Part shown: piece after piece, positions 349 through 29,710 of the stretch | How the letters are laid out: each line of letters opens with the position of its first letter | How positions within the stretch are numbered: position 1 is the stretch's first letter | Assembly (NCBI GenBank): GCA_015501585.1 | Contig: JADNRY010000102.1 | Span: forward strand, 1 to 64,000 | Origin: Rhodocollybia butyracea | Lineage: Eukaryota; Basidiomycota; Agaricomycetes; Agaricales; Omphalotaceae | Direction: 5' to 3' | Length of the DNA: 64,000 nt | The notes under the pieces: model-generated | Told to the model about the DNA's origin: nothing | What the model saw: the letters and a program-made list of their open reading frames with translations, nothing else | The model's database searches: none | Made by a program: the position numbers and the translations under genes

Positions 349-596
349 TGTAACGCCTCCGCCTCTCCATAATCACCACTGACCGTATCCGGCGATACGG
401 TCATCTAGACGCCGCCGATAGACCAAACGGTCTATCTTATCATTCTATTTTTTTTTAATATAATAAATCTGTTACTATAAGTATCATATGATTACTTGAG
501 AGTCTAGTGTAGTCTTTACACCATTTACACACAATAGTATCCTATTTGTCGTGTTCACCGGTGTTCTTAAGGACTTTGCCCATAGGGTGCGTTATA
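349..596 (+). repeat. LTR, subfamily A (3' LTR of the element at the left edge)
   Basis: The repeat starts TGTAACGCCTCC and ends GCGTTATA; the two ends form a short imperfect inverted repeat (TGTAACGC/GCGTTATA). Closely similar copies are at 11972-12224 and, with an internal deletion, at 54431-54616. It contains small hairpins built on CCGTATC/GATACGG and GATAGACC/GGTCTATC. Its position just after a polypurine tract makes it a 3' LTR. Confidence 0.85.
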
Positions 597-730
597 TGTT
601 TCTTCTTTTGTTTCCCCCACCCCCACTGTTTTTTGTTTCTTTTTTACTTGCTATATTTTGATAGTGCGTTTTGCACATTTCACACCTCTAATGCGAGACC
701 CTGACCTATCATTGCCGAAAGGCGGCGGCG

Positions 731-2599: not shown

Positions 2600-3117
2600 T
2601 TGAAGCTGGGGTTCAGCTTGTTCAAATTGTCTGTAAGCCAGAAGAGAGACACTGAAGCATGCTGGAGTCAGGACAAAGCAGAGAGAGTTCATGTGCACCA
2701 AGGTGATGAACTGTGCTCTATACCTGTCAAGATAGATCTGTTGTTTGCAGAGGCCTTCAGAAAGTCTCCCTACCCTTGGAATCTGCCTTCATGTCAAACT
2801 TGGAAACTTTTTGACTCTGGGCACTTCCCTTTTACTCATTTCTGTACACCTTCTCTCAGCATTATTCTGTCCTTGCGGCAGATAATTTGCTATCAACTCA
2901 AAGCAGTTTCCCTGTGTCACTGTTCTTACGCTGTTATTTCTGACCTTGTGTCGCATCCTCTCTTTTGCATGTCTAGTACTTCGCTGGTTCAACGTGTTTT
3001 CTCTATGTATGCAATGGTAGGTTGTACTTTGGGTCAATTCTTCCGTGAACTGATCAGCCAACAGAGCACTCCAATCCTCAAATCCCACCATGGACTCATA
3101 GGCCACAAACATCCTGA

Positions 3118-3522
3118 GTGCAAGATCTTCATCACTTCCCCCAACTCTTGCAGTATCTTCCTGACAAAATCTGGGGCCACCAAAATGTCCATCTATGGCG
3201 CAACTACCACTATGGTGAGTACGACCCCATGCATATGCTGCAGTTTCTCAATCTCAAAGTCATCTACCTTTCCCTTATACAACTCCCCAATACCAATACC
3301 AAACTCCCCTTCCACATTCTCTGGCACAGACTGGAGGAGGACAAGTTTGACGTGATGGATGGCTTCAAATTGGTGGAACTGGTCATTGGCCGCCTTCCAA
3401 AAGAGTTTGTTGAGGCGTTGGAAAGGGCATACCTCCACCTCTATCATTCAGTGACTGATGCTAGGTCTTCATTCAGATTCCAAGTTCAAGGACTATTGCA
3501 GTCGCATCCGCTGACACATTGA
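3118..3522 (+). CDS. Hypothetical ORF fragment
   Basis: I do not recognise this ORF of about 134 residues. The middle reads like real protein (charged segment LEEDKFDVMDGFKLVELVIG, then RLPKEFVEALERAYLHLYH), which suggests an alpha-helical domain fragment. An overlapping plus-strand frame spans 2600-3355, and a minus-strand frame (2789-3112) also looks protein-like, so the coding strand is not certain. No start context, complete domain or intron model could be established. It is probably a remnant of a longer gene. Confidence 0.25.
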   Translation: MQDLHHFPQLLQYLPDKIWGHQNVHLWRNYHYGEYDPMHMLQFLNLKVIYLSLIQLPNTNTKLPFHILWHRLEEDKFDVMDGFKLVELVIGRLPKEFVEALERAYLHLYHSVTDARSSFRFQVQGLLQSHPLTH

Positions 3523-4270
3523 ATTACGCTGTATGCCGAAATTCAAGCGAAATGTCATCATTTAAAAGACCACACGTCACGTCACTACCTAGGGTACGTT
3601 ATGTATTAGACACTTTGAAGGTCCACTTCAGGTATCTAGTATGTAGAAACCCATTTGAAGGGAGATACACTATGTTTTAAGAGGCTACATTACTGTGCAA
3701 GGATGCATCGTTGACCTACAAACTCAAAATCAATCAAATTGATTTACCTAGATTGATTTAGGCTTGCCAGATCTAAAGTCTATTCAATTAATACTACCTA
3801 CTGCAAAAAGTCCTATACAGGGATATACAAGACAGGATTAAAATAGATGAAGAGAGACGAATGAGGGCAAGCATAATGCGAACCCATATCCGTTTTAAAG
3901 TAAGAGAATCGAAGCACTGGCTCCCTGGAACGAACCACAGAGAGAAACTAGACAATTAGTGATGAATTAGACGCCGGGGATCAAAGTGGCCCGGCGCCGG
4001 CAGTAAAAGAAAGGCGGGGCGCGTCCTAGCAACATGCCTATAATAAAATTTATTCGGACCGACCTACGGGACGGTCCACATGTATACAAGTACCCGGTAG
4101 GACCCGGGAAGAGAAGAGAAAAGGGGAGATACGGAACGACGCCGCAAACTTGAACCGCGGGACGGACGGACCGCCCGGCGCTTAAAGCGCATCAAAGTCG
4201 AACCACTCATCGGGAATGCATCGTTCTTCCCTCCCCTCCATTACTTATTAAATAAAAGATGTAGAAAAGG
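3523..4270. other. Unassigned stretch with a GC-rich block
   Basis: I see no gene. The segment at about 3970-4200 is notably GC-rich and has short dyads around GGACCG...CGGTCC and CCCGGTAGGACCCGGG, unlike its AT-richer surroundings. It may be the terminal part of an unidentified element. On the minus strand a short frame ending CIPDEWFDFDAL followed by a stop could be the tail of a decayed ORF. Confidence 0.35.
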
Positions 4271-4752
4271 TGTAATATGGGTAGAGGACCCATGAGACAA
4301 TGATATAGAGCCCTGGGGACAGTGTAGGAACCAGGAGAATACTTATAAGCTCAGTTATGGCTAACAAGGGCAACATGAGATTTATCTTCTTGGCTCTTGG
4401 CAAGCCAAGAGAGTCTTACCAACCCATGGTACCTTAATTAAGAAAGTTTCAAGGACCTAGGAGTATAAAAAGGCAAGGAAATGAAGAGAAAAGCATTCTT
4501 TCTTACCCCCACCAGGTGTAGCAGCTCCTTATCAGGCTACTACTAAACGATTGAATTGATATAAAGACTGGGATTTACAGAGAGAAATTGACAAGCAATT
4601 GAACTTGAGTAAAGAGACAGAAAGAGATTCAGTGTGAACTGAGTGCAGAGAAGTTAAGACAAAGACTTAGAAAGGACTTTGAATATTATTTTCAAACCAC
4701 AGTTAGGCTGCAGTCAGAGCTCTGTCTGAGTTATAGGGACACCCTCTGGTCA
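4271..4752 (+). repeat. LTR-like segment abutting the Harbinger fragment
   Basis: The segment starts TGTAATATGG and ends GGTCA, giving TG...CA ends, and has an internal TATAAAAA box near 4465. Its right end coincides exactly with the point where the Harbinger frame (4753-5104, minus) is interrupted, so an insertion boundary at 4752/4753 is well supported. No 5-bp duplication matches across both ends (AAAGG versus GTCTT), so this is either one end of a larger element or a rearranged copy. Confidence 0.35.
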
Positions 4753-5104
4753 GTCTTCAATTGATATGTAACAACTATCTGAAAGTCCACCTATGTTGCG
4801 AAGCTCACTGATGAGTGCACAGAAGACATTCTTTCTCATGCCAAACATCTGGCGAAAGCATTCATTATGGCCTACCACCATATACATATTAAAATGGAGG
4901 ATATAGAGATAGACTCTATTACTTACCTGCAAGCAACTCTTTCAGCCAATGCTCTCCTTTGAATGATCCATTCATAAGAGGTTGGCAGGTTGAATTTCCG
5001 GCTAAATGAACTGTGACAACTGCTACAGCAGCAATTACTGTAAAAGCTGCTATTTTTTTTTTATACCAAGGCCCTTTTCTGTAGCCTTGGAGCAACCGAG
5101 CCAT
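4753..5104 (-). pseudogene. PIF/Harbinger-type transposase, N-terminal fragment
   Basis: Two minus-strand exons join: 5104 down to about 4925, then about 4872 down to 4753, across an intron GTAAGT...GGTAG. The joined protein reads through LLAGHNECFRQMFGMRKNVF and ends CYISIED. This matches the N-terminal helical region before the DDE domain in basidiomycete PIF/Harbinger proteins (known pattern: ELLAGH-x-x-RF, then M-x-R-x-x-F, then a segment usually continuing EEQLAIFL). The frame stops where the LTR-like segment begins, so the catalytic domain is missing. The family call rests on motif memory. Confidence 0.6.
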
Positions 5105-5228
5105 ACAGAAGAGGAGAGAAAGGATAGAAGCTTGTTAAAGGTGCAATAGCGGCCCCCAGGTACTAATCTCACATCAAAGTTGGGTGGCCGGATTAATCTC
5201 ACATCAAAGTTGCGTCAGTTGCGACAAA

Positions 5229-5924
5229 TCAGATCTCACATTTTGTTGTCGGATCACCCTGTTGTATCAAAGTTACAGAATGGGGCCATATGCCTACAGT
5301 GAGAGTAGGCTCTTTGGGAGCGTTACCAAACAACCTGCGCTTGATGAGTTGCACTGCGGCCGGTCGATATTGACATACACGAAGGAAAATTTTTTGCAAT
5401 TCTATGTATAATACATTATGATTAATCATCTTGAAAAGAAAGGAAATTGACTCACTACCAAATTGCAAAACAACAACTTCTAGGACCCGTTCCCTAGCAG
5501 TCATGCAAGTACAGTTGCCGTTGTGTTGGAGTTCAATGTCCTGAGGGAGGTTGAGGGATTTTTGGAGATATTCCATGTATGGCCTGACAAGAATTGGTAA
5601 GACCTCGTTCTCCCACCTCAATTGCTGTGCAAACCACTTCCGCACATGAGGTGTCTGTGGTACTTGTGTGGATGACCCTGCTGTTTTGTTCTCGGTTCCC
5701 AATGTAGGAGTGGAAGGTCGTTCCAGGAACCCAAATTGACTGACAGGAGTTGGGAGGTTGCGCTGTGAAAGAATTGCACCATGCAAGATGGGTCGCGTGT
5801 TTTGTTTAGATGGTGATGCTGATTGGGGAGAACTTGGAAAGGTGTTGGAATCAGAGCGTGTTGGTGTGGATGGCGCAGAAAGATTCTTGGAAAGATGACC
5901 TTTCCTCAAATGGAGATGCACCAT
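5229..5924 (-). pseudogene. KDZ transposon-associated protein (CxC1-like), N-terminal fragment
   Basis: The minus-strand frame begins with a Ser/Thr/Pro-rich region (SAPSTPTRSDSNTFPSS) and then WENEVLPILVRPYMEYL, a CTC cysteine cluster, and CQYRPAAVQLIKRRLFGNAP. The C-x-CRPAA-QLL--GLF-AP pattern is typical of the cysteine-cluster region that opens Kyakuja-Dileera-Zisupton (KDZ) transposase genes in Agaricomycetes. A probable intron falls between VVLQF and the LRVCQYRPAA segment, with GTAGTGAGTC as donor. The transposase core is absent: the frame ends at 5229 and a Harbinger fragment follows. It is relevant that KDZ elements and TET/JBP genes (one at 25.7 kb) are known to have expanded together in these fungi. 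Confidence 0.6.
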
Positions 5925-7334
5925 TGTGAGAGTGGAGGAGAGAGACTGATGGAAAATGAAGTATTTTTATTGTTGGTAAAGGCAATGTCATGATGGGATC
6001 ACAACAATGACATGGAACCAGGAAACTGAGGTTCAATGGATAATGAACAATACACTTTCATCAAGTACAGTCTTCCCATTTGACACACCAACAGTCACAT
6101 GGTCTAATTTAACCCAAGTGCAGCCTGTTTGACCCATCTACAGCCACACAGTCTCACATATATCCCCAACGTCTCGCAATCCCCACAGCTATAAAACACA
6201 AGGCCAAATAGCCAAACACCTACATAGACTCAAGGTCCAATGTAGTGCACCAACGCAAGGATGGACCAAAATCATATCAACGACACAAGGCCGTGAACTA
6301 GGAAAGTGATTGCACGTACTGATTGTTTGCTGGCAAGCCGTTTGCACTACAGATGAACTAAGAGGTTAGAATTGGCTACACTCAAAGACCAATGTGATGT
6401 ACCTCAAATGTCTGAACTACATGGAACAAGCTCTTATCTTAAGAGGTTTGTGAGGTCTGGATTGGGAACGGTCTCAGTTGTGAGTACTGAGTACATCAAT
6501 ATTTTGTCTGACAAAAAACTTCTTGTGTCCTGCAAGGAGGTGGTATTAGTCCTCAAAGTGGTATTAGTTGTTGAGGAGTAATGGGAAGAGAGAGTAGCCG
6601 ACAGATGCCTAAGTGTGAAAACTCAACAAGGGTCAGAAAAGCAGAAAAGGAAACTGAAAGAGGAGCTTACAATTGTTGAAGGGAGTGTAAAAAGGATTCA
6701 TCCTAACAAAAAAAAACAAGAAAAAACCAACGACGCAAGGCTGTGAAAACTCAATTCAAGATTGAGCTGTATAAACAGTTGACGCAAGGCCAACAGTGCA
6801 GAACAGTAAGCAGTAGCGATGCATGGGCGCTACTGCAGGGAAGAATTGATGTTGGCAATGTGGACAATGAGGGAAGATGCAAGAAGTGGCTGAGAAAAGC
6901 GCCGACACACAGCCATGCACAGCTTTGGGCACTTCGAAACTTTTAAGTCTCGGCGCTCACACAGCTGGTAGCGAAGATAATTTTGAGCTTCTACTTAGGA
7001 TACAGCTCCATTTCACTTAGTCAGTTTGTAAAGCTTTCATATTTGGATACAATTGGCCAAGATACATAGAACAAAAAAGGAAAGATATTAAGATACAGTA
7101 GGCAACTAGAAGATATACATAAAGTTTGACAAGTTTGAGATATGTCCAAAATACAAACCGACAGCTGAAAGACACATTAGATGGTAGAGGGAAGCATCAG
7201 GGGCCGTCTGAAAAAGTCAGAGAAAACTCAGATATACCAATGAGCAACCAGATACTCCGCACGGTCTACCTCTGTGACACTGGGCTGTCGGCTCGGGGAT
7301 AGCCACCATACCGCCATTGTCACATCCAAAGGTA
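5925..7334. other. Unassigned stretch with short dispersed repeats
   Basis: No gene is recognisable. The phrase CAACGCAAGG/GACGCAAGGC recurs several times between about 6250 and 6800 (near 6251, 6280, 6728 and 6780), suggesting a decayed tandem or regulatory array. It may be the 5' flank of the KDZ fragment. Confidence 0.4.
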
Positions 7335-7706
7335 TCATGTTGTACGGAGAACACCATTCAAGGCTTGCATGATACGATACAGGTTGAATGAGGCAGCTTG
7401 GTGTTGCATCAATTCTAAGGAACCAAACCCCATCCTCACGTTACTGAGCCCCTCAATACCACCCAGCTTCTCCCTTTGCAGGCAATTCTTAGAGGGCGCT
7501 AGGTCATCGACCTCTTCATCTTCTGTCTTGCTGTCTACAACCATGTGAGAAGTTGCCGAGCTCGTGTTGTATAGATGGTGGTCGGCCAAGAGCAGATCGG
7601 CTTTGAAGTTGTTGCAAGTGAGGTTATTGAGTATGGAGGTGTGAATTTCATCAGGAATTACATCTGGATATTGTACCCCCTTCCACGATGCAACAATGTC
7701 CTTCAA
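7335..7706 (-). CDS. Hypothetical ORF, 123 residues
   Basis: This minus-strand frame has an acidic central part (DSKTEDEEVDDLAPS) and ends LNGVLRTT. I recognise no domain, signal peptide or membrane segment. It lies just outside repeat copy A and has no copy near repeat B, so it is not part of that repeat. It may be spurious. Confidence 0.2.
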   Translation of the reverse strand: MKDIVASWKGVQYPDVIPDEIHTSILNNLTCNNFKADLLLADHHLYNTSSATSHMVVDSKTEDEEVDDLAPSKNCLQREKLGGIEGLSNVRMGFGSLELMQHQAASFNLYRIMQALNGVLRTT

Positions 7707-8283
7707 AACTTGTGAGATCTATTGACTACAGAAACAGTGAGTGCAAGTACATATGATATACATCCGGAAAAAACACCCCTTTGCCAAGGATGATTCACAT
7801 CTTCCTGAGGAGCTACCACGTGCTCCCAATGACCTGGAAGCTCTAGATTTCATAGGCTGCCAGGGGACAAGCTATAATTCCCTCAGTTTCAAGGCAACAA
7901 AGGAGACCCAGGAGAGTACTTTTAGGCTATCCTCAAGATGTCCCTCAAGTAGCTTTTGTAAGCTTCAGGTGTGGCTAAAGAACAGTCAAGGAGCCTGGAG
8001 GATAAATAGAATACCTCTGAGATATCTCTTGAGAGGACAATACCTATCAGAGGTTACAGAGAAACATCCTTTGACTATTACAAAGGTTCCATGTAGAGCT
8101 TTCAAAATGACTTCGGAAAATTCTTAATACTCTGTGAGCAGTTGAGGTTTGCGAAGAAGAAACTGACTTGCCTCCTGTCCTGCCCAGGAAGCATCCCTAA
8201 TGCCTCTGTGAATCCCTCAGATATATCTTCAAATAGCTATGGCTGCACTTGAACTTTCCTACAGTACTGTCTAGAACGTCCCA

Positions 8284-8530
8284 TGGGTGTTCCTGGGCTG
8301 TCCCAGGGATGCCCTGGGCTGTCCTAGGCTGTCCTAGGGATGCCCTGGGCTGTCCCAGGGATGCCCTGGGCTGTCCTAGGCTGTCCTAGGGATGCCCTGG
8401 GCTGTCCTAGGCTGTCCTAGGGATGCCCTGGGCTGTCCTAGGCTATCCTAGGGATGCCCTGGGCTGTCCCAGGAATGTCTTGGGATGTTCCTAGGCTGTC
8501 CCAGGGATGTCATGGTCTGTCTTCGGGCTG
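8284..8530. repeat. Minisatellite, 21-bp-based units (copy A)
   Basis: Imperfect tandem units of the type GGGATGCCCTGGGCTGTCC and CTAGGCTGTCCTA fill this block. Each unit contains a small palindrome (CCCAGG...CCTGGG type). The corresponding array in copy B (34575-34935) is longer and more regular, so copy number has changed since duplication. Confidence 0.8.
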
Positions 8531-8851
8531 TCGCAGAACATCTCTTCAAACCCCCGGACATACCTCAGAACAGCTATGGCTGAGCCCCGACTTTCAAACA
8601 ATGACCCAAGGAAGCTCAACAGAGCTGCTGGCAGTTTTAAATTTAGTTCTGAAATCATTTTTGCTTTCCTGAAATAAGCGACAGCGGGATTATTCCTGTA
8701 CTCAAGTAATATTTGATAGGACAATATATATACAGCAGAATGAGCAAATGCAGATATGAAAGGTGAATAAAGCATATGATCAATGGAGCAGACAGTGAAT
8801 GAAGTGAATGGAAGATGCAAAGAGTAGCAAAAAATGACTGAATATTTTGTG

Positions 8852-11800
8852 TCACCGACCCTCATTGCTTCCAGCCATTGTCTTGGATCTTAGATTTCTC
8901 TGCACCCCAGTGCTCCCGGCGTTTTTTTGCTCCTCTGGTGTTTTTTCCCTCCCACGTCTTGTTCTTCCATCTTGCCAGAATTCCTGCTCGTGCTTGGGGA
9001 TTGTATATTTCCCTCCTTTCCATCCGCATTGTCGTCACTGTCGAGCTCTATCACATCATCCAAATCCAATATCCCCATCTTGCTCCCAATTTCCTTCCTA
9101 ACGTCCGGTTTTGGGCTATTGTCTGGGCGATGATCTGATCCCTCCGCTTTCGACTCGATGCTGAAAGCTCCACCTTCCTCCGCCCCGACAATGGGCACCT
9201 TGGGAGTTCCTGTGTTTTCACTGTCGAACACCGCACCAAACCCCTTGTCTCCAGCATTGGACCTGCGGCTGCCACTGTCGCCGGGCCCCTAACTATCGCG
9301 GTTGGACCCTTCATCAAACCCCTCACCCTCATGGCTGGACTTTCCATCTGAGTCCTTGTGTTTGAGCTTGGAGCCCTCGTTGTCGTTGTCGTTTCCGCTG
9401 ACGTTGCTGTTGTTGCTGTTGTTGCCATTGCTGTTGTTGCTGTTGTCATTGTTGCTGTTGTCATCGCCATTGTTGCTGTTGTTGCTGTCACTGTTGTTGT
9501 TGTTGTTGTTGTTGTCATTGTCATTGTTGTTGTCGCCGCCGGATGCATGGTCAAAGCCCTCGCTGTCTCGGTTGGGCGCTTCATTGGACTCAGCGCCCTC
9601 ACTGTCACGGTTAGACTCTGTGTCAGACCTCTTGCCATTGCTTGAGTTAATCCTTCACTTCTCCACGCTCCTCCTCTTGGGATCCGGTTCCCCCTTCTGC
9701 TTCTCCTCCCCCTTCTTGCTCTTAGCTGCCTTCCTCAAGTTCTTGTCCATTTTGCTCATCATCTTCCCTGCCGTCTTCACCTCTTTCGTTGCCTTTAGCT
9801 TTATCGCATTCTTGTTCTCTGCCTTCTTCGACGCTATCTCTGGAATCCTCGCCTCTGGCTTCCACTTTGTTGGCTTCTCCTCCTCCTCCCTCTTCTTTGC
9901 CAGCTTTGCTGGTTTCTTTGCCCCTCCTTCTTCTTCAGTGGCTTTGTTGCTTTCTTTGTCTCCTTGTTCTTCTTCGCTGGTTTCTTCGCTGGTTTTTTTG
10001 CCTCCTCCTTCTTCTTTGCCTCTTCCTTCTTCTTTGCCTCCTCCTTCTTTTCTGCCACCTCCTTCTTCTTCTCCTCGTCCTTCTTCTCCTCACTTTCTGC
10101 AAAAAGATGACAATGCGTCATAATTGAATGTTTGAACAGAAAGAAGCGAATGACTGGGTGCTCTAAAGCATTATTACATATGAGGGCCTAGCTAGATAAG
10201 TGCGACCAACAACTTACCTCATTCTTTCATAAGTTTTTTTCTCTAGAAAATCGAAGTATGGCGGAGAGTTCACCCAAATCCTGTCAATGCTTTCCCATAT
10301 GGCATTGTATCTACAGCAAAATTATGATAAAGCAAGTTAGTGACAGTAAAACAATGGACTGTTGTTCACTGACTGATCCTGGAGATTTTTTGCTGAGAAA
10401 TGTATACTCTGCCTCATTCCACTCGCATGCTCCATTATACAGTGATAGATCTGCAAATGAGGGTTTGAGCAGGTCGACAAGAAGTTGAAACAAATACTGT
10501 TGCCGTCACTGCAGCTATCAGACGTCCTGGCACATGTTGGAGTCGATGCAGTTCTGTAGTTATAAGGCGATAAGTTGTCTTTTTTTGCGCATTGACTAAG
10601 AATGCACCAAGGATTTGGGCAATGAGTGAACAATAGAAAGGCTTTCCCGACTTCTTTTCCTGAATAAAACCAAACCAGTGACGAAAAAGATAGGGAAAAG
10701 AGAAAAGAATTACCTTGAAGTCAACACCTTCACAGTGGTATTGGCCTTCGCCCATCAGCCAGTTGGCCAATTCCACCTCGAGAAAACATTCTTAGAGCAA
10801 TTAAAGGAAATAAAAAGGAAGAAGCCTTTACCTGAGGCCCTCCCTCATCCACTGAGCTAAAACCGAAATAAGGATCCACGAGTGTTCTGGTCTGTTGCGC
10901 TAAGGCATAACGAACATCAGATTTGCTATAACCTATCTGGTAAGAGGATTTAGAATGAGAGCATTGGAAGAGCAGAAGGAATTCACCCAGCGTAGCAACT
11001 TATCCAGTGCCTGAGGATCCTTCTTGGTCTCATGTAAATCCTTGAGTATCTGGTTATCATCACCTTGCTGCGAAACCAACTCCTCTTCCAGTACTTCCCA
11101 GGCAAACATCTTGTCAGAAGGAAACATATCCAGAAGGCAGATTGCCTTTCTCACCGCCTGTTTACTTATCTTTGCAAGCACATCGGAAGCAAGATCGCTT
11201 TGAAGGACTTTTGCCCTGGTTCCATTCTGTTTGTTCTTGTTCTTGTCTCCTTTGTCACGTCCTCGATAACCATCTGAAGAAATGGAACATATGTACATTA
11301 GTGGAAAAATCAAAAGAATAGATTTTCGCTCACATCATCTCTTTCATCTCCATTGTCTCCTTCACTGTATTCCATTGTAACACCGCTGTCTTGCTGGGTC
11401 TCATCATCCAAGGTATGCGGAATATCCGAACTACTATCTTGTGAGGTAGTAACCCCAAACCTGTCAGCAACTATTCCACCTTGGAGCATGGATCACCCAC
11501 CATTTCCTGAAGTGCCTGCACAAAACCGTCAAAGGTAAGCCTGTTCTTGGTCATTAAGTTCTGTGGAGTTGTAGTATGTGCGGTATGTAAACCATATAAG
11601 ACGAACCAACCCAATCCATCTTTTCTCAATTCTAAGTGCTCGCAGAACAAGATAAACTGGCTGCTTCTACAAAGAGGTCCAACAACTTACCTTTCGGTAT
11701 TGTGCCCTCTGCAGATGCATCAAACATCCTCGCATAGGCTTGGATGTGGCCCACCTGTCTTGGCTTTTTGGGGCCATTTGCATTTTTAGAGGGTTGCAAG

Positions 11801-11868
11801 CCGGAGGTTTTCGGCTTTTTCTGAGAATGAACTGAAGCAGAGTTACAACATTTGTTTCCACCAGACAT
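8852..11868 (-). pseudogene. DUF6532-like gene of the dispersed repeat, copy A
   Basis: The gene has several minus-strand exons. The first starts at 11868 (MSGGNK...) and is Lys/Ser-rich. It is followed by an acidic stretch (DDETQQDSGVTMEYSEGDNG), a helical block (AKISKQAVRKAICLLDMFPS, then FAWEVLEEELVS), and a further block (KPFYCSLIAQILGAF, then HVPGRLIAAVTATV). This is the layout I associate with DUF6532-type proteins of Agaricomycetes, in which a Lys-Pro-Phe block precedes an Ala/Thr-rich helix. The C-terminal part is low complexity: Lys/Glu-Ala repeats (about 9830-10120), Asn/Asp/Ser repeats (about 9390-9530) and an acidic DVIELDSDD motif. The tail frame shifts relative to copy B near 8930, so this copy is probably not fully intact. 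Function is unknown. Confidence 0.4.
9365..9540. repeat. Trinucleotide-type microsatellite (GTT/GCT/ATT)
   Basis: Interrupted GTTGTTGCT repeats lie inside the C-terminal low-complexity part of the DUF6532-like gene. On the minus strand in the coding frame they encode Asn/Ser/Asp runs. Several frames stay open across the tract, so other apparent ORFs here are artefacts. Confidence 0.8.
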
Positions 11869-11971
11869 GAAAGAAGGAAGAAAGACGCGAAAATAACCAC
11901 GTGACAGCGCTTGGAAAAACTTAAAAGAAATGATGGATCTGTGCCTTCATCAGTCTTTCAGACTGTCCTCT

Positions 11972-12224
11972 TGTAACGCCTCCGCCTCTCCCTCATCACC
12001 ACTGACCGTATCCGGTGATACGGTCATCCTAGATGCCGCCGATAGACCAAACGGTCTATCGTATCTTTCTATTTATTATTAATTATATAATAAATCCGTT
12101 ACTATAAGTATCGTACGATTACTTAAGAGTCTAGTTAGTCTTTTACACTGTTGTACACACAATAGTATCCTATTTGTCGTGTTCACCGGTGTTCTTAAGG
12201 ACTTTGCCCATAGGGCACGTTATA
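11972..12224 (+). repeat. LTR, subfamily A (5' side of the Gypsy region)
   Basis: This 253-bp copy starts TGTAACGCCTCC and ends CACGTTATA and is near-identical to 349-596. It is followed by retroelement internal sequence, so its position is that of a 5' LTR. The flanking bases (CCTCT before, CTTTT after) are not a target duplication, which rules out a simple solo LTR. The LTR at the other end of the region (19519-19753) belongs to a different subfamily. Confidence 0.85.
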
Positions 12225-12392
12225 CTTTTTTGAACATCAAAAAATTACTATTGTGTGAATAACACAAAGCTATTAGTTTAACAAGCTAAAAACAGTTATA
12301 CTACCAAGTATAACAACCACTATTCCAACTCACATCACAAGCTATACAAAACCCGCTCCATTTTCCGTCCCGCTATATCATTTGCTGTCTCA

Positions 12393-13877
12393 ATGACCTC
12401 TCGAAATCAATCAGAGAAGTCATATCGGAGCGTGCGCGATCGCGCACCTTCCATTCGTGGTGACGTGTCACCACAATCAATCTATTCAGTCGCATCAGCG
12501 ACTCATTCCGTGCGTGTGTCTGAAGGACGGCACTACAGGTAGGACAAGAGTCCACCTAATGAACAGTCTATGACTATTCATAAGAAACGGCTGACCCGAG
12601 AGGGTTTAAGTGAGATTTCTTCTGCGCTACGAGATGTAGTGGCATCACTCGACAAGAGTACGCAAGTACTCAATCGTATTCTCAATATAACTGAGAAATG
12701 GGATGCATCTAGCATCCGATCTGATGAAGAAAGATCTTCTTCATCAAGAAACAGCAATAGAACCACTATTGCTGCACCCACACTGAGACGGCCTGCCGTC
12801 ACACCACCGGTATTGCACAACGCAACACCATAAATTCATACCGAGACAAACAACTCGGTACGCCAATGGCGTGAGACTGTGCCCAAGGCACCGTCAGTCC
12901 AACAATCACTGTTGGACGAACAGTATTCACAAGGGATGACCAAGTCACTCCGTCATGTTCCTGTATTTCGACAGGAATACACACCAGTGTCAGTAACTAC
13001 ACTGACACCCATCAACACATCCCGCATGAGACAGAGTCCCAATGCGGAGGCAGCGTCTCAGACACTGCGAGGTCCCAGGCCATTACCTGTGACCAAATCC
13101 CACTCACTGCAAAGTGTGGTGAACATCAACAATGAACCAAAGTTACCTCGTAACTTCAATCAGGTAGTAGCGATACCACCACAGGAAAGTACAATGTACT
13201 CACCTACTGCAAGGGCGCCAGTGGTACCCAATATTATTATTACACCTCCAGTAGTTGTACTGAACACTACTGGAGATCACTCCAGTATGGGACCGCAACA
13301 CGGTACCCTTCCGGTAGTTCCTACTACCATATCCATCGCCCCGGCGACACAAAGTGTTGCCCATCCGGTAGTACACACTACCGTAAGACTGCCCAAATTG
13401 CCGCCCAGCAATGCGCCAGAGCCAAGTTCAATGCCAGTACCAACGGTATTGGCCAAGTTGCAACCACAGCCGCTTCTGTTGGGAGTAGCTAAAGATTGGA
13501 TGAGTCGCATAACGATTCAATGCCAACATAACACCAGTCTCCGAGATTTTGGATTCACGCCATCTGGGCTTCCCGACCAAATGGTGGGATATAATGTTGA
13601 CAGAATACCCGTTGATAAATTGACTACTCCCAGAGAAATCTGGGATCGATTTTACATTCCACCCGCTGAGTCCTTTCCAGGACCAAGCAATAATGCCGGA
13701 GCGAAAGCGCCTAGCAAAAAATCCCATGAAGGGGGGAGGAAGCACAAGAGTGCTAAATCCAAAGGCCGCAAACGCAGCCCATGGTCAGATGAATCATCGG
13801 ACCCAAGTGACACTGAGTCAAATACTGACTCATTGTCTAATGCCTCTTGGCTAGACAAATTTGCTAGCCAAACATAA
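12393..13877 (+). pseudogene. Gag-like region of the Gypsy element (decayed)
   Basis: The first ATG after the LTR (12393) opens a frame starting MTSRNQSEKSYRS that is stopped near 12540. Frames 12570-12833 (helical, ending in a Ser/Arg-rich stretch) and 12879-13877 (Pro/Thr/Val-rich, with a C-terminal basic region SKKSHEGGRKHKSAKSKG and an acidic Ser/Asp-rich end) continue it. No CCHC zinc knuckle is visible. Composition and position between the 5' LTR and the RT point to a gag or gag-protease region that has lost segments. The nucleotide sequence is full of short hairpins (for example 13161-13177, AAGTTAC-CTC-GTAACTT). Confidence 0.55.
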
Positions 13878-16368
13878 GTACCGATCCAAGATTGATCTTA
13901 GTGATGCATACAAACAAATTTGTACTGAAGCAGGCGATGTTTGGAAAACAGCATTCGCCTGCATCTTCTGGACATTTGTCAGTAATGTCATGATGATGGG
14001 GGATTGTAATGCCCCAGCCACTTTCCAGCAAATGATGACATTCATCTTTCGCGACACTATTGGGAGATATGTACACGCATATCTCGACGATATCTTTGTC
14101 TTCAGTGATACACTAGAAGAACATGTTAAGCACATCAGAGATGTACTTGATCGCCTCAGGAAGCATCATTTCTTCCTTTGAGCTGCTAAATGCGAGCTCT
14201 TCTCTGCTAAAGTGGAAGCTCTTCTCTGCTACAGTGGACTGTCTTGGACATTCCATAGACGATAAAGGTATCCACGCAGACACTGACAAGATGGACAGGA
14301 TTCGCGAATGGCAAACTCCGCGTACGTTCAATGACGTACAACAATTCTTGGGGTTAGTACAATACATAGCCCCGTACATGCCAGATGTAGCCCAGTATAC
14401 TGGACCACTGTCTATAATGACAAGGAACAATGTTCCTTTTGTATGGATGCCAGTCCATGGAATGTGCTTTCAGCACATCAAAAGACTGGCAACCAAGGCC
14501 CCAATACTAAAACCTATAAATACTAATAAAGACGAACCTATATGGGTCATCTGCGATGCATTGCTATCCGGCGTCAGATGCATGTACGGTCAAGGACCTA
14601 CATGGCAACATGATAGGCCTGCCGGCTTCATGTCCAGAAAGTTTACTGCAGCGCAGCATAACTATAGAGTTTTCGAAATAGAAACTCTAGCTATCCTCAA
14701 AGCTCTTCTCAAATGGGAAGATAAACTTCTTGGATATCAAATTCATGTGGTCACTGACCACAAAGCGTTAGAATTCTTTCTAACGCAATGAAAATTGTCC
14801 AGTAGACAAGCTCAATGGATGGAATACCTATCCAGATTTGATTTTGATATACGTTATATCAAAGGAATAAACAACAAAATAGCTGACACATTGTCGCGCT
14901 ACTACAAATCTGACATGATTCATGAATATCATGAACCGCATGAATATGTAAATGCGGATATACGCATTGACAAAAATCTGGACAATCTTCCACAAGGAAG
15001 AGTTGAAGAATTGGCTAAGGAACACTTAGCCAATATAGAATTAAGGCCCTCATCACACTTGCGTGGTAAACAACCGGCGCAACATCCAATAGTCAAACCC
15101 GTCAAACGACGAGATGAAGAGGCTGCAGAAATGCAAGCCAATGCGGAAATACAGGTACCAAAGGTACCAGTAATCCTCCCTAACAAGGAAGACATTAATG
15201 TCTTCCAATCAAGGCCTAGAAGTGTAGAACCTCTAACAATTCTACCCGAAAGGGATGAATTCATCGAAGAAGTCAAGCGGTTATATACCAATGACCCATT
15301 ATTCTGCAAGGTACTCAGTAACCCTGAGCACCATAAACCATTCTCAGTAGAAAATGGTTTAATCTACACGAGAAATTGTGGCAGAGAAATAGTTCTCTGC
15401 ATTCCGTCTGGCCAAGCGGCCAATGGAAAGAGCTTGCGAGGCATAATAGCCGAACAAGCTCAAGAAGTAATTGGTCACTTCGGAGGACAACAAACCGCCA
15501 ACTATGTTTGACAATGGTACTGGTGGCCACGGTAATGTCTACATCATTCCACCCCCAGACGGATGGAATAACTGAACGAGTAAATCATTCAATTGGCCAA
15601 ATCTTACGGTCAATGGTCGAAGCAGACCAAAACGACTGGGTAGAAAAATGCCCAATGATGGAATTCGCATTGAATTCCAGCGTAAACAAGAGCACAGGGT
15701 ATGCTCCCTTCGAGGTAGATGGAGGGTACGTGCCATCCATGGTTTGCGAATACCCGAGCGATGCAAAAGTCTCGCCGGGTGTATGCGAATTCGCAGATCG
15801 TGCCCTTCAGCACCTCTCTGATGCCCATGATAGCCTTATCGAGGCAAGGGTAAAACAAACCTTCCATGCTAATAAGCACAGAAGGGATGAACCCAAAATT
15901 AAACTAAATGATTTAGTTTACCTATCGACAAAAAACTTAAATTTGCTGAGGGGGAGGGCTACCAAGCTCTTACCAAAATTCTTAGGACCGTACCCTGTCG
16001 TTGAGGTACACCCAGATTTGTCTAACTACCGAATCGGATTGCCAATAGAGTTGGCAAAGCGTGGAATACACAATAACTTCCACGCGTTGCTAATACGCAA
16101 ACATCATCCTAACAATGATGCATTATTCCCTATGCGCTCTGTAGCAGAGCCATACGATTTCGGCAAACTATCCACAGTGGAATGGTTAGTCGATGAAATA
16201 ATTGGACATCATTGGGATGGCCGAAAAATACTATTCCATATTAAATGGAATCTTGGTGATACCACCACAGAACCATACACAACATGTAAGGACCTAGTTG
16301 CTCTAGATAGATATCTAGAACTTCAAGGCATTGACGACTGGCAACGACTTCCACGGACGACCAGTTAG
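13861..16368 (+). pseudogene. Pol polyprotein of the Gypsy element: RT, RNase H, integrase, chromodomain (broken)
   Basis: The RT core is recognisable from KIDLSDAYKQI and the catalytic YLDDIFVFSD (about 14075-14105). RNase H follows (IWVICDA, then VVTDHKALEFFLTQ). The integrase keeps part of the zinc-binding region (IGHFGG, WYWWP) and the distal block MSTSFHPQTDGITERVN with the catalytic Glu; the two catalytic Asp are missing because about 115 codons are lost near 15530. The C-terminus has a chromodomain-like segment (VDEIIGHHWDGRKILFHIKW). Damage seen: a TGA at about 14179, a 22-bp tandem duplication at about 14192-14235 that shifts the frame, a TGA near 14789 and the integrase deletion. 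It cannot encode an active polyprotein. Confidence 0.85.
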
Positions 16369-16567
16369 GTCTCCATTCTAATCAAAATATTCTATATAAT
16401 AGAATCACACAGAAGCAACGGCATCTGCTTCTTTTAGTAAAAGATTGCCCCAACAATCACATTTGGTGGCTTTACCTTATGTACAACCACAATCGGGCAA
16501 TGCCTCATGTTGTGCCTATAAAAAGGGAAAGAAAAAATTATCTTTCCCAACTTACTCTTTCACCATC

Positions 16568-19434
16568 ATGGAGAAAGACACGCCGTCGAAAGACAACGAC
16601 AAAATGATGGCGCTGGGCAACCAGCACTATCTCCATCCTCGATACCAGCTCAACTGAGCAATCAGTTGATACCTAATCAACGAACGGTTGGCGCGTCGAA
16701 GAACCCGCCAGCACAACTTGTGTTTGGCACAGCGAACGCATATCCTGCTGAACCAGCGGGATTACAACAAGCCAGTAACATGGCAGGTACGAAGTCATCA
16801 TCAATGGCCTTCAACCAGGTATCCAACAACATCGGACACCAGTTATCATGGACATTCCACCCTAATATAGGGTGTCATCTTCACGAGATTTTGAACATGG
16901 GGATTTGTCCTCATTGCCAAAACTTCCTCCAGCATTCGACGGAGGCATTTGTTATGGCGGACCCTAGTTGGACCGCCGCTGGTAACACTCAAGAGGAGTA
17001 CTACCGGCAACACCATCGACACAACATGTTGAACAACGAAAACAAATCAGCAGGATAGCCAGCTGCACTGCCAGGATATCAATATTTTGCCTTCGTAAAA
17101 GGCAAGGAAATATATAACATTTTCCCATCGATTTTTCAGTGTTTTTTCTCCCCTGCAAAATATCACTTGTTTCAGAAGAAAAAGGTGTGGGAAAATAGAT
17201 CCTTATTCACCTGTAAAATAACATATTTTACACTAGCTATTTTTCTACATTTTTTGCCACTGGAAATTTTATAACAGTGGCAAAATATTGTATTTTTCAT
17301 TGTATTTTTCTTGTGAAAAAGGATTTATTTTACGGCCGGGCCGGCCGGCCCGGACAAAGGATTTCTTTAACCCGTTCATCGCCTGTTTCTTTTCACAGCA
17401 TATATTTCCTAAGTAAAACAAAGCTTTTACAAAGGTAAAAACTATGGAAAAATTACAAATATTTCAAGGAAAATAGATTTGGTAAAATATGTACTTTTTC
17501 CAGCGGAATAAGCGCCGAAAAAGGTTTTATTGTCCCACACCTTTCACGGACACAAAACATGATATTTTACAGGGGACAAAATTACTGGAAAATGACCTGA
17601 AAAATGTAAAATATTTTTACAGCAGAAAGATACTGATATCTTGGCAGTGCTTGGCACCGCTAGCCATGACTTATCGTCTCTTACGAGACGGTATACTGAT
17701 TTACAGCGCGACTACGATGACACAGCACGCGCGCGCGAAATTCGCAGCCTCCAAGAGAGGTGCAACAGATACTCAGATGAGTTGGAGGGATACCGCTGGT
17801 ATTCATCCACCAGACATGGTCATGGCTCTCCTCGTTATGAGGAGGAAAGCCAGTCTGGGAAATGACAACGGGTAGAAGCTCCGGCTTCCACCGTATTCTT
17901 GTCTAACGACGACTCAGTGTCATTTGACATTGATAGTAGCGCAGGTCCAATGGACCTGGATCCATCAACGACAGGAGCACCTGCTCCGTCTTCTTCCTAC
18001 GCAGGAGCGGTACTTAGTACCAATCCTGCTTCGTCTTCCACCATTCCTCCTGAAACTCAGGAGGACGCTCCAGCAATACTGCCAGAACTCCCTCATTGAA
18101 GGAGTGATGGTGGCTACTTTGCCACCGATGGCTGGAATTGCTACGGTGAAGATGCCAATCTCGTGAAAGTCAATGACAATTGATGACTTCCCATTTCTTA
18201 TGGCATTCACACCGCTTGCGAGGCTACCCTCGCTAGAGCAGAAAATCTTATATTCCCGGCTAACAGCCAAGAAGTCATCTGGTATCTTAGGATACTTTGC
18301 AAACCCACGTTCGCGAGTAGACATGGGTACAACACCTCACGGCGTTGGACCCTATACCGGGTCTTAGACCAGGAAGTCTGATCTCTCCGAAGAGGAGACC
18401 TAACTCACATAAGTGAGTTACAACGAACTCTGCTCGTCAACTGGTTTGAACCAGTTTTCATATCGATTGCCCGAACTGCTAAGCAGGACAAGGCTGCTGG
18501 CATCACTGCTTGCACTCTGGATGGAGAAAACTCCGTCCAAAAGAAGAAAAAAGGGAAAGGCCGTATGAAGCCCGCCCCTGTAGGCTGGTCCAGCAGTACT
18601 TCTGCCGGACCCTCATCCATTTGAATGGCTCCTGCGGGCACTGCACCGCGAGCCGAACTCTCACTGCCATCCCGAAATGGTACGGCTGATGCCTGGGCGG
18701 CATATCTTGTCACCCCACAAGGGCTGACAGTGCGCCCTTCGGGTATTGTGTACCGTGAAGACAGTGCAGTAAGCAAGTGCTCCATTTGTGGACGCCAGCT
18801 GATCAATCCAAGGCGGCCTGATCCGCCTCCTGGAACCCCTCTGGACATATCGTCCAGATATTTGCTGTTGGTAGCGGAGGTTATCCTCCATCACCATTAT
18901 TATCGCCATTTAGTGGCTACAGGGCGGATTACAATCGCCTCGCCTCCGCCACCACAAACATTGTTCACTAATTACCTCAATGGCAACATTGAGGATGTTG
19001 CCTGATTCTTTGCTGAGCAAGGAATCTCTGTTGCGGATCTCGAAGATTCCGCTTTGTATGCAACCACCTGGCTGTAAACATTCAATCCGCGTAATGCGGA
19101 AGCAGCATTAGCTGCTTCAATACTCAGGGGACGTATGCCCCCTCATCTTCATCTCCCTGCTGGGATCAACGATCACTATTGTACCCTTACAGGTACAATA
19201 GACAATCGTCTGCCAGCCATCACTGATGTCCAGCTTACTCCAACGGTGGTGCCTACGGCACCGCAAGTATTCAACCTGCCGCCTGTGCCTGTGCCACAGG
19301 CTTCATCTATTGCATCGACTTTGTTGATGACAAACAACACTGCTCCAGCTCATTCTTTATCTGGACCTGCTCCCGCAGGACCGTCTTCATCATCTGGAGA
19401 TACGTCTCCCCAGATGGATGAATCTGATGGATAG
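16568..19434 (+). pseudogene. Third ORF region downstream of pol (decayed)
   Basis: Between pol and the polypurine tract lie about 2.9 kb (excluding a 586-bp insertion) of sequence with protein-like pieces: MEKDTPSKDNDKMM at 16568; a His/Cys-bearing piece (CHLHEILNMGICPHCQNFL) at about 16870; a coiled-coil-like piece (LQRDYDDTARAREIRSLQER) at about 17700; a piece with KCSICGRQL at about 18775; and a Pro/Ser-rich end. A TATA-like TATAAAAA (about 16518) sits some 50 bp upstream of the first ATG. Frames are interrupted repeatedly. The position is where errantiviruses carry env, but I see no signal peptide or membrane anchor. An alternative is a displaced gag or an accessory ORF. Hairpins saturate this part as well. 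Confidence 0.5.
17065..17650. mobile_element. Foldback/MITE-like element, AT-rich, CACTG termini
   Basis: The ends are inverted repeats: GCACTGCCAGGATATCAATA on the left and the complement of GATATCTTGGCAGTGC on the right. Imperfect inversion continues inward (TCCCCTGCAAAATATCA near 17150 against the complement of about 17558-17575; AGGTGTGGGA near 17184 against about 17535-17545) and meets at a GC palindrome (GGCCGGGCCGGCCGGCCC, about 17335). It has no ORF. It splits the third ORF of the Gypsy element. Flanks CTG/CTT could be a degenerate 3-bp target duplication, which with CACTG ends would fit a CACTA-related MITE. Confidence 0.6.
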
Positions 19435-19507
19435 TCCCCCCAGTAATACGTCTTACTGGGGATTTATCCCATCATATCGTTCAATTAGTACCCTAGGTAC
19501 TAATCTA

Positions 19508-19518
19508 GTGGGGGAGGG
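19508..19518 (+). promoter_or_regulatory. Polypurine tract of the Gypsy element
   Basis: GTGGGGGAGGG immediately precedes the LTR start at 19519 and is identical to the tract at 338-348. This is the expected primer for plus-strand synthesis. Confidence 0.7.
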
Positions 19519-19753
19519 TGTAACGCCTCCTCCCCATCTTGCCTGATTTCCTTGACTTAACTTTTGTCGCATCGCGACTCTTATCTTATCTTATCTTACG
19601 ATTAGATATCATTTCTATTATATTCATTTCGATTACTATAACTAGTCGAATTACATAAATTACTGTAGTTCTTCTACACTATGAGTACACAATTGCATAG
19701 CCTTTGTCGTGCTCTTTCATGTGAACGTAAGACTCTCGCTTAAGGGCGTCATA
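19519..19753 (+). repeat. LTR, subfamily B (3' side of the Gypsy region)
   Basis: It starts TGTAACGCCTCC and ends GGGCGTCATA. It shares order and scattered words with subfamily A (CGATTACTATAA, TTTGTCGTG) but most of the sequence differs. Following bases CTCAA do not match the bases before the 5' LTR (CCTCT). The pair therefore did not arise from one simple insertion. Confidence 0.75.
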
Positions 19754-27132: not shown

Positions 27133-27445
27133 TTCCTTTTTTTTTTTTCAAATTACTTTCAACATAGATCTTTTTTGGGTTTCTCAAGGGATTCTCAAGG
27201 GCTTCGTGGTCAAGGTTGCATTTTTTCAAGGACAACAGGCAAGTGTACTGGAGTTGTAATACAATGTTAAAGAGAATGCTATTTCTCACCCTTGAGCGCT
27301 CATTTGTTTCAACCCATGACGGCACTTAGCTCACAGAGCTTGTTTAAAGCTTGACGATAAAGACATAAATGAACAGCTTCGATCTTTCTCGGGCCCCTCT
27401 GTCGTTTCAGAGGCGCAAAAAGTAATTCAACTGGTATCGAATGTG

Positions 27446-28975
27446 ATGGATGAAGACATCAAAATCGTCGAGGCTCAGATGGAGAAACTTGATGCTCAAA
27501 TCGAGGTTCTGTTTTCTGACCGACGTAACCTTGGCCATGAAATGGAGATACCGCGAAAGCAGAGAGAAAAAATCAAATTTTTGCCATCTCCCTTTTGGAT
27601 GATGCCAGACGAAATATTAGCGATAATTATGGAGTACGCATGCGCAGAAAATTATCTGAAGAGCCACTGCTACACCTCTCTCCCTGCCATCGCGATAGGT
27701 TCCGTTTGTCATCGTTGGTACAGAATCGTAAAAGGATTACCAAAACTCTGGTCCAACTTAACAGTAGAGACAACCATTTCTAGGCCGGAAAACTGGGGAG
27801 CGCCTGAACGTTCAGTGGCTAGCTTTTCAGATAGGATCATCGGGTTTCTGGAGAAATCTCATCAGGTTCCGTTAAACATAATGTTGCTTGCAAAGGGTAC
27901 ACAGCCCCTTCACTGGCATGGCCCTCTTACCTTTCCTGGCCTAACTATGCTCACAAACAAAAGTCATCGTTGGAAGATGTTCAGATACACTGGAGATAAT
28001 TCAATCTCTGGTTATAATATACTCTCTGGCCTTGAATTTCCCCTTCTTGTTGAGCTGGATATCAGTGGTGGAAAAGGTGCCAGTGCCGCCAATCTTTGTC
28101 GGTTCGAAACTTCCCCGAAACTTTGTACAGTTCGGGGTTTTGTTGAACCAACGTCTCTACTGCCAATCCCCACCATCATCTGCCAAAAGATTACAAAATT
28201 TTGTGTCGACGGACACTTAGAGTCCCTGGAAACATTGAAGAAAGTTCTGGATTGCTGCATTTCTCTGACTTTTCTCGAGATCAGTTTCATAGAAGACTCT
28301 ATCAGACTTGAGAAAGCCAGCAAATACCCCAACATCACTTCACTTGCTACAAGAGATATAGTCTCACTAGAGGCTTTATTTCTCTCCTTCAATTTTCCTT
28401 CTCTGGCCGAGCTCGTGGTTGATGGTGGCAAGGAGTGGTCAACCGAGGCATTTGAATCCTTCGTGTCAAGATCAGAATGCATGATCACTGCATTTGTTAT
28501 CAAAAGGATATCTCTAACTGATGATAACCTTCTACGAACCCTCCATCTCATGCCATCTCTAACTTCCCTCGAAATTGAGGACGCTGCCACAATTTACCGC
28601 AATCATCAGAGACAAAGTCCAGTCACTTTAAAGCTGATGTCAGCGCTCACTGTTTGGGATGATATCTCCCTTGTTCCGAAACTACACAGTCTCTACCTGT
28701 CTTCTGATAGCTGTTGCAGCCACTCTGAACTCGTTTCAATGGTTCAATCACGCTGGTTTCCACTGGGTTCAGAGCGGTCTGCAGCAATGTCAAGGGGACA
28801 AGGCTGCATACAGTCTGTTATTCTCAAGTTTCCGCTCGGCACAGTTGATCGCGAAGTTTATGAGCCGTTAGAGAATTTGGATAGACGTGAAGGTTTGCGA
28901 GTAGTGCTATTAGAATTCGTGCGGGATGATGACTGGGTCTGTTATAGTTCTATTTTTCTTTGTACATTTTGCTGA
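27446..28975 (+). CDS. F-box protein with C-terminal leucine-rich-like region
   Basis: The predicted role is a substrate receptor of an SCF ubiquitin ligase. A 509-residue single-exon frame has an N-terminal coiled coil (EAQMEKLDAQIEVL), then the F-box (LPSPFWMMPDEILAIIMEYA, later GSVCHRWYRIVKGLPKLWSN), then degenerate Leu-rich repeats (for example SLTFLEISFIED, FPSLAELVVDGG). This length and order are typical of the large F-box family of Agaricomycetes. The frame is open upstream of the ATG to about 27330 and reads LDDKDINEQLRSFSGPSVVS, while ATG 27318 begins MTALSSQSLFK in another frame; a one-base difference near 27351 may have cut the natural N-terminus. No internal stops occur, and the codon pattern is free of the hairpins seen in the Gypsy element. 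Confidence 0.8.
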   Translation: MDEDIKIVEAQMEKLDAQIEVLFSDRRNLGHEMEIPRKQREKIKFLPSPFWMMPDEILAIIMEYACAENYLKSHCYTSLPAIAIGSVCHRWYRIVKGLPKLWSNLTVETTISRPENWGAPERSVASFSDRIIGFLEKSHQVPLNIMLLAKGTQPLHWHGPLTFPGLTMLTNKSHRWKMFRYTGDNSISGYNILSGLEFPLLVELDISGGKGASAANLCRFETSPKLCTVRGFVEPTSLLPIPTIICQKITKFCVDGHLESLETLKKVLDCCISLTFLEISFIEDSIRLEKASKYPNITSLATRDIVSLEALFLSFNFPSLAELVVDGGKEWSTEAFESFVSRSECMITAFVIKRISLTDDNLLRTLHLMPSLTSLEIEDAATIYRNHQRQSPVTLKLMSALTVWDDISLVPKLHSLYLSSDSCCSHSELVSMVQSRWFPLGSERSAAMSRGQGCIQSVILKFPLGTVDREVYEPLENLDRREGLRVVLLEFVRDDDWVCYSSIFLCTFC

Positions 28976-29710
28976 CGGTATTGGTAGTGGTAGCGGTAGT
29001 ATAACCAATGTGGTCCCATTTAGGAACTGCCGGGGCCCCATATCACGCTAAATACTTGCCTGGATGCGTAGCCAATGCGTAGCTATGACTTGAGCTGTGA
29101 TCAGCACTCGCAGTGCCATATTTATAGTAGACCCAAATTCGAAGGTATCAGGAGTTTTAAAAACATATGTTGCAGTGCGTTTGCGGCGTGACAAGCATAA
29201 GAACAATGATTCAACATGAAAAAGAAAATAATTCATAGTTGTGGCTTTCATCGATAGGGCTCGTTAATAGATCACGTGCTTACGACTAACAAGCACTGGG
29301 TTTTGTATCTTGCTTCAAACCGTTCACCGATGAAAATAAAAATAGAGTCTACTGCAAGACTTGGTACGTATTTCTTGCTTTTGTGCTCCATTATCGCTGA
29401 AAAGCTCCATCCTTCTTTAGTGCGCTCTGTCAATGTGGATGTTACACCGCCTTCCAGTGCTTCTCCCTCATAGATGTTGCAAAAAGTGTTTGTTAGTAGG
29501 TGCGTACAATTTCTTTTCTTATTACCATCGCCCTAGCTGACGCAATTACCAGTACTTTTCTCCCCTTTAAACGCTTTATCGGAATAGACTAGAGGCTCCG
29601 ACAATCTTAAATCTCATATGAGTCTTTGGCTCACAGGTGGACATGATGGTCGCAACCTACAAGAAGTGGGAGATTCGGTGTCTCCTAAATGGAATCAACT
29701 TTATGCTAGT

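Follow-up and report, generated by a model that had tools for sequence, protein, structure and literature searches.

Many local stem-loops within coding sequence, together with a surplus of folding energy over shuffled sequence, are known from positive-strand RNA viruses as genome-scale ordered RNA structure (GORS). The RNA phages MS2 and Qbeta (Fiersviridae), which have no DNA stage, likewise carry structure that is accepted as selected. Among long terminal repeat (LTR) retrotransposons, the genomic RNAs of Ty1 and Ty3 contain dispersed structured regions, a well-folded core making up about 20% of Ty3 RNA and stable structured regions reaching up to 30%; hairpin saturation is not part of this description as excerpted (PMC11381356). 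The titles and abstract openings covered by our literature search described no hairpin-saturated LTR element. Here we analyse a 64,000-nucleotide stretch of Rhodocollybia butyracea (assembly GCA_015501585.1, contig JADNRY010000102.1, positions 1-64,000, forward strand; hereafter the window), in which an earlier note had reported a Gypsy element at 12393-19504 saturated with short hairpins. We found that hairpin-forming inverted repeats exist in large excess in this element and its relatives, were limited to their clade within the set of elements examined, bring no detectable cost in amino acids and show an excess of compensated pairs between families. Most of the sequence of these jumping genes of a mushroom-forming fungus, coding parts included, is thus predicted to fold into closely spaced small hairpins, as had otherwise been described for some RNA viruses. 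Copies were sought throughout the genome that holds the window (95.6 Mb, 1381 contigs), and evolutionary statements cover this one genome with two pol families (B and C) and one gag-only family (A).

Scanning for perfect inverted repeats (arms of at least 8 bases, spacer 0-12) returned 70 in the whole window. Thirty-eight of them lie in 12393-19504, where 100 dinucleotide shuffles averaged 1.1 and never exceeded 4. The excess over chance claimed in the earlier note was therefore confirmed, and all 13 arm pairs that it had located are perfectly complementary, including a 20-bp palindrome at 15187-15206; its count of about 17 was too low. With arms of at least 6 bases the same interval contained 108 repeats (18.7 in shuffles), and with arms of at least 10 bases seven (0.07). 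The interval is hairpin-rich as proposed, but the true stretch runs from 11971 to 19753 and holds five further repeats, 43 in total. Three of the 38 (at 17212, 17252 and 17336) sit in a 583-base insert from another repeat family. A second cluster of six repeats was identified at 39-436, within the 3′ end of another family A copy (1-597). The excess is local, since the remaining window exceeds its shuffled expectation only about twofold (2001-12000: 5 repeats vs 2.2; 20001-64000: 16 vs 9.1). An F-box gene to which the element had been contrasted (27400-29000) encloses no repeat with arms of at least 8 bases and six with arms of at least 6, where 4.8 are expected.

The repeats belong to three related families. 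Family A, an LTR element with gag only, measures about 3.3-3.7 kb and has at least 40 matches, one of them in the window (40 of 185 candidates scored); copies are 94-100% identical to the corresponding part of the window among the matches listed. Direct terminal repeats of 214-258 bp were present in all four fetched loci (L037-L040), and no pol frame was seen. The A gag has no Pfam match of its own and is 53% identical to the B gag over 364 columns. For family B, 40 of 62 candidates were scored and 42 matches obtained, the one in the window among them, and 20 loci on 20 other contigs were fetched. Assembled from several loci, it comprises gag, a pol frame of 1215 aa and a third open reading frame (ORF3) of 555 aa. 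Specifically, the pol frame of locus L016 encodes RVT_1 (226-386), RT_RNaseH (478-580), H2C2 (777-831), rve (847-945) and SH3_Tf2-1 (1064-1129), and this order of reverse transcriptase, RNase H and integrase places family B, as judged from its domains, with Ty3/gypsy. A zinc knuckle was found in the B gag (zf-CCHC in L035:28-2112, 21.7 bits vs a cut-off of 20.8), and a weak aspartic protease match (RVP_2, E=0.0016) scored 18.7 bits, below the curated cut-off of 20.3. ORF3 follows pol in a hairpin-rich region (L016:5548-7215) and gave no Pfam match at E<=0.01. Of the two ends of family B only the 3′ one was seen, and it is 61% similar to the A LTR. The chromodomain PF00385 was not among the seven Pfam families detected in the B pol (E<=0.01) and is carried by eight of 120 pol relatives (the best 120 of 796 matches), so that we did not apply the label chromovirus. 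Family C consists of two loci, L048 and L050, which are 98% identical to each other and show 75% DNA identity to family B in a codon alignment.

All 20 fetched B loci contained between 12 and 41 repeats with arms of at least 8 bases per 6.5-7.8 kb (flanks included, counted without shuffles), the lowest counts coming mostly from truncated or more divergent copies. In the three B loci that were shuffled, 36-38 repeats compare with 1.1-1.2 expected. As controls served ten 3-kb gypsy loci, chosen for long open frames among 150 matches listed. Eight of these held no or one repeat, whereas L048 and L050 held 14 and 12, and these two hairpin-rich loci are the only ones of the ten with DNA similarity to family B. 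Other C-like loci were enriched as well (L051-L053 and two pieces of L037, 2-6 repeats vs 0.15-0.44), and the next relative, L054 (56% DNA identity), had one repeat vs 0.34. Within the set of elements examined, hairpin-forming repeats are thus confined to the A/B/C clade. The copy in the window is damaged by stops, a deletion at 15533/15544 and an insert, and therefore the two-fold constraint on codons, proposed earlier for this copy, had to be shown in another one. The open 1215-aa pol frame of L016 contains 17 repeats, where codon-preserving shuffles gave 1.25 and a second codon shuffle keeping the junction dinucleotides 1.07. The first procedure gave 14 vs 0.58 in C48 and 11 vs 0.76 in D50 (L050), with all eight control gypsy loci at chance, and the second agreed with it. 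The excess is reproduced neither by codon-preserving shuffles nor in the F-box gene with its zero count, the two outcomes that the earlier note had named as speaking against its claim. We rejected that hairpins are a general trait of the gypsy elements of this genome, as eight of ten control loci are at chance; that they are a by-product of decay, as stems occur in copies with open frames too; and that one repeated unit was inserted many times, as the stem sequences differ.

The stems comprise about 6-10 pairs with loops of mostly 3-5 bases, and the array spans LTR, gag, pol and ORF3. For arms of at least 7 bases, enrichment was 17-70 fold at spacers of 3-5 and fell to 0 to 2.6 fold beyond 20; family B contains 76 such repeats in 7.56 kb, about one per 100 bases. 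Loops of 3-8 bases are rich in A on the sense strand (B: 49% vs 31% in shuffled loops, P 1.3e-7; A: 47% vs 30%, P 1e-4; C: 42% vs 33%, P 0.03). Pair orientation along 111 stems of L016, L048 and L038 was uneven, with C-G outnumbering G-C at the closing pair (41 vs 13) and G-C outnumbering C-G at the outermost pair (37 vs 10). Structure was predicted with RNAfold, and the folding-energy surplus (minimum folding energy difference, MFED) was calculated against shuffles in 350-base windows. Predicted surpluses amount to 42.3% for B pol, 40.4% for C pol, 44.2% for A and 35.3% for B gag, and to 41.5%, 39.6% and 29.5% for the parts of the window element itself, the last being its B-derived 3′ part. 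Four control gypsies ranged from -0.6 to 9.6%; with 200-base windows, eight controls gave -2.3 to 8.6% and the F-box region 3.2%.

Set beside the systems introduced above, the elements come numerically closest to MS2 and Qbeta, for which the same scripts gave an MFED of 27.1% and 31.0% (Escherichia coli rRNA: 5-6%), an excess of perfect stems, and G-U mismatches no more favoured than A-C ones. Arms of at least 8 bases exceed expectation 6-fold in MS2 and 9-fold in Qbeta, compared with about 31-fold in B, 26-fold in C and 66-fold in A; the MS2 count of three is not above the shuffle maximum. Loops in the two phages are not A-rich, unlike those of families A, B and C. With GORS the elements share the local stem-loops within coding sequence and a surplus throughout the coding region, here 40-44% in B pol, C pol and A and 35.3% in B gag. 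GORS was described for genomes of RNA viruses and the present case is an LTR element integrated as DNA, so that it may be said to work like GORS but not to be GORS. Published genome means of about 15% in SARS-CoV-2, 7-9% in hepatitis C virus (HCV) and 23.4% in the highest coronavirus, as well as a local maximum of more than 50% within one gene of SARS-CoV-2, are comparable with ours in order of magnitude only, because the shuffling differs (figures as excerpted from PMC7642675). The positions of GORS stems are described there as poorly conserved, whereas many stems are common to families B and C.

For the comparison of these two families, stems were followed through the codon alignment, which was possible for 24 of 35 stems in B and 28 of 30 in C after those meeting gaps had been dropped, and the null redrew the codons of the other family given amino acid and partner codon in 1000 draws. 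Paired positions numbered 140 vs 114.8 expected (maximum of the draws 130) and, in the other direction, 166 vs 130.8 (maximum 145), and stems with at most one broken pair numbered 13 of 24 vs 4.6 and 18 of 28 vs 4.2. The comparison of arm pairs for compensatory changes, which the earlier note had proposed as a check, came out in its favour: 12 compensated pairs were found vs 4.4 (maximum 10 in 1000 draws) and 9 vs 3.6 (reached in 0.3% of draws). Compensatory covariation thus exceeds a null of independent substitution. Choosing stems that are perfect in one family inflates retention but should hardly affect the number of compensated pairs. Several stems of the window illustrate the pattern. The palindrome at 15187-15206 in pol corresponds in C to a stem of 7 bases that keeps the register and includes one compensated pair; the coding stem aaggaaca/tgttcctt (14422-14438) reads acggaaca/tgttccgt in C, a double compensatory change; tagagttt/aaactcta (14665-14689) corresponds to agagtct/agactct with a compensated pair; and taaaccatt/aatggttta (15334-15361) to gccattctc/gagaatggc in the same register. 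Only 11 of the 24 followed B stems share at least three pairs with a perfect C stem, and there must therefore be turnover too. Likewise, in gag, where A and B have 61% DNA identity, several stems have remained almost fully paired, in some cases through compensated pairs, and others are lost.

The protein appears to have paid little for these stems. Residues of B that depart from the majority of 17 relatives made up 24 of 169 within arms of at least 6 bases and 63 of 447 elsewhere, counting columns with at least 60% conservation; when the threshold was raised to 95%, there were 0 of 75 in arms vs 14 of 202 outside, and family C behaved alike. As amino-acid departures are not in excess in stems, the stems were probably built mostly by synonymous choice. 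Among 269 fixed differences between B subfamilies, the mean loss of folding energy was 1.01 kcal/mol, and random changes of matching type cost 1.36 kcal/mol; the direction is as expected, but C-to-T and G-to-A changes dominate and we therefore give this result little weight. In 24 of 24 loci the arms had diverged less from the window than the rest, but we left this result unused, because the choice of stems that are perfect in the window biases it.

What produced the arrays is hardly chance, composition bias, codon usage or a bias of the reader, an explanation to which we give almost no weight: the flanking DNA also lies at about twice its shuffled expectation, but dinucleotide and codon shuffles, the eight control gypsy loci and the 20 further loci on 20 contigs all speak against it. 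The earlier note had offered two readings, selection on RNA or cDNA structure and template switching during reverse transcription. What both require, that stems were made and maintained, is supported by the codon shuffles, the controls and the compensated pairs; deciding between the two is hard. We consider selection for a hairpin-rich RNA or cDNA genome, acting at synonymous and non-coding sites, the probable cause, because there is no amino-acid footprint and no asymmetry between arms, the sense-strand loops are A-rich, and RNA phages provide a parallel. The RNA of the element, and perhaps its single-stranded cDNA, would then be folded mostly into local hairpins, as in MS2 and Qbeta. Plausible benefits would be compaction together with dispersed Gag binding sites in the particle, or protection against targeting by small RNAs or against annealing to complementary strands. 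The stronger statement, that this LTR clade evolved an RNA-phage-like genome in which nearly the whole sequence, coding or not, is a selected row of short hairpins set at synonymous sites and kept by compensatory change, with more perfect hairpins over its length than in MS2 and Qbeta, and that its gag-only partner did likewise in a different sequence of its own, we hold at slightly better than even. Several observations weigh against selection on RNA structure. Retention between B and C is inflated, as only stems perfect in one of the families were picked, and its two directions are not independent of each other but overlap. A-rich loops also occur in one of six control loci (L049), and the small set of loops at 1-597 of the window is not A-rich. 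Folding energy is lower on the antisense strand, and short direct repeats are in excess too (B: 15 vs 5.6; A: 7 vs 2.2), although not in C. Mismatches that could be repaired synonymously are not rarer than expected (49 of 107 vs 46.5; in longer stems 32 of 60 vs 26.4). Finally, the preference for G-U over A-C that is expected of selected RNA structure is absent from the elements: hairpins with one mismatch contain G-U 15 and A-C 27 times (0.79 and 1.15 expected), changed pairs between B and C are G-U in 16 and A-C in 26 cases (31.9 and 45.1 expected, both directions summed), and predicted pairs hold 5-6% G-U compared with 10-11% in controls. In 79 of 81 one-mismatch B hairpins the mismatch is the majority state in 11 other copies, and it is therefore not private decay. 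The same preference is absent from MS2 and Qbeta, in each of which G-U and A-C are nearly equal (6 and 5), whereas E. coli 16S and 23S rRNA shows four G-U and no A-C (arms of at least 8 bases), which is few but as RNA predicts. As the phages behave like the elements, we dropped this comparison as a decisive test; synonymous repairability, too, lies near expectation in elements and phages alike.

Strict Watson-Crick pairing, a G-U fraction reduced by half and a two-base change that completes a stem keep template switching alive as an explanation. Nascent cDNA would fold back on an imperfect palindrome, copy its own arm and rejoin the template, and purifying selection would remove versions that damage the protein. 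Compensated pairs would be the expected residue of such arm conversion, and family A, for which we saw no pol frame, is affected to the same degree. The two-base change completes a 13-base stem in ORF3 and appears to be derived in L025 and L027 (two of 17 copies with the site, 21 searched). That template switching creates and maintains hairpins has been argued for RNA genes, with perfect stems and multibase compensatory changes as seen here (as excerpted from PMC8794818). In the present case a whole element is affected and direct footprints are weak: among 301 clusters of differences between copies, eight were tied to an inverted repeat in one partner only (control transforms: 2, 1 and 2), and these were unpolarised with four in each direction. 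Strand-specific copying should change one arm more than the other, yet family-specific stems changed left and right arms 24 and 35 times in B and 29 and 28 times in C; nor was there a clear gradient of pairing from loop to end in the other family, or an amino-acid footprint. Overall, we regard arm conversion as a possible but rather unlikely cause, and selection and fold-back copying may have acted together. Inverted repeats within functional, conserved protein genes have also been described from nematomorph mitochondria, where they reach up to 284 bp, compared with stems of mostly 6-10 bases here (PMC6649704, as excerpted). Selection could alternatively act on the DNA form, either on double-stranded palindromes (cruciforms or protein sites) or on hairpins of single-stranded cDNA alone. 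Mismatches of the G-T and A-C type are about equally common, as this would predict, and loops of 3-5 bases suit DNA hairpins as well. However, A-rich loops on the sense strand and asymmetric flanks are unexpected of double-stranded DNA (they have no bearing on single-stranded cDNA), and no common protein site is evident, since the stem sequences differ from each other; we consider this explanation improbable.

The designation of the window copy as a Gypsy element gave the correct class, but this copy combines parts of families A and B in a chimera with an unrelated insert. Its 5′ part (11971-13866, forward strand) derives from family A, with the 5′ LTR at 11971-12224 followed by the first part of the A body with the gag frame. 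Its main pieces are 95-99% identical to each of the four A copies that were fetched (91% in one 106-base piece of L037), and it contains 13 repeats with arms of at least 8 bases vs 0.31 in shuffles. The A homology stops at 13866 in three copies and at 13869 in one, within 3 bases of a sharp junction at 13865-13866, and 16 of 20 B loci align from 13865; the junction looks like that of a recombinant of two elements. The following pol part (13867-17065, forward strand) was assigned to family B by blastn to the 20 B loci and by Pfam matches in frame pieces (RVT_1, RT_RNaseH, SH3_Tf2-1). Its pol frame is broken, about 360 bases are gone at 15533/15544, and the integrase is a remnant by comparison with B; it contains 16 repeats vs 0.46. 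The insert (17066-17648) is unaligned in all 20 B loci, its ends match each other in inverted orientation, and full-length copies elsewhere are 76-87% identical. It is itself repeat-rich (3 vs 0.51) and predicted to fold strongly (33-35%), but its absence from the B loci and its own copies elsewhere led us to reject it as a piece of the hairpin-rich family. The 3′ part (17649-19753, forward strand) again derives from family B, at about 91-95% identity to most copies, and holds an ORF3 remnant, a probable 3′ LTR-like end at about 19460-19753, and 10 repeats vs 0.38. The 3′ end of the second family A copy (1-597, forward strand; LTR at 349-596) is 86-93% identical to L037-L040 and contains 6 repeats vs 0.12.

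Further repeats in the window comprise a patchwork at 53402-56669, including a fragment of a family A LTR (54428-54616), and a repeat at 32633-33612 that is 93-96% identical to DNA preceding the element at about 10900-11975, judged from the offset in L029. Reverse transcriptase matches at 38-40% identity lie within open frames of about 1500-3134 aa at G000:C937:11676-12602 and ten similar places. Named pol relatives among the best 120 of 796 matches come from Phanerochaete, Trametes, Phlebia and Mycena; these best 120 share 51-60% amino-acid identity with the pol, except for one match at 97%. Of six relatives of the F-box gene, five bear names, from Rhodocollybia and Gymnopus.

Possible reasons put forward for GORS in RNA viruses are persistence, shielding, packaging and strand separation. 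LTR elements have no RNA-templated RNA replication, and therefore the separation of plus and minus RNA cannot be the whole explanation. An integrated element whose mean surplus exceeds that of MS2 and Qbeta and the viral genome means excerpted from PMC7642675 makes these reasons separable. With two pol families, their gag-only partner and no fewer than eight unstructured gypsy elements side by side, this genome offers a natural experiment. If, on the other hand, fold-back copying by the reverse transcriptase is true, it would be a mutational process strong enough to rewrite the synonymous sites of a whole element.

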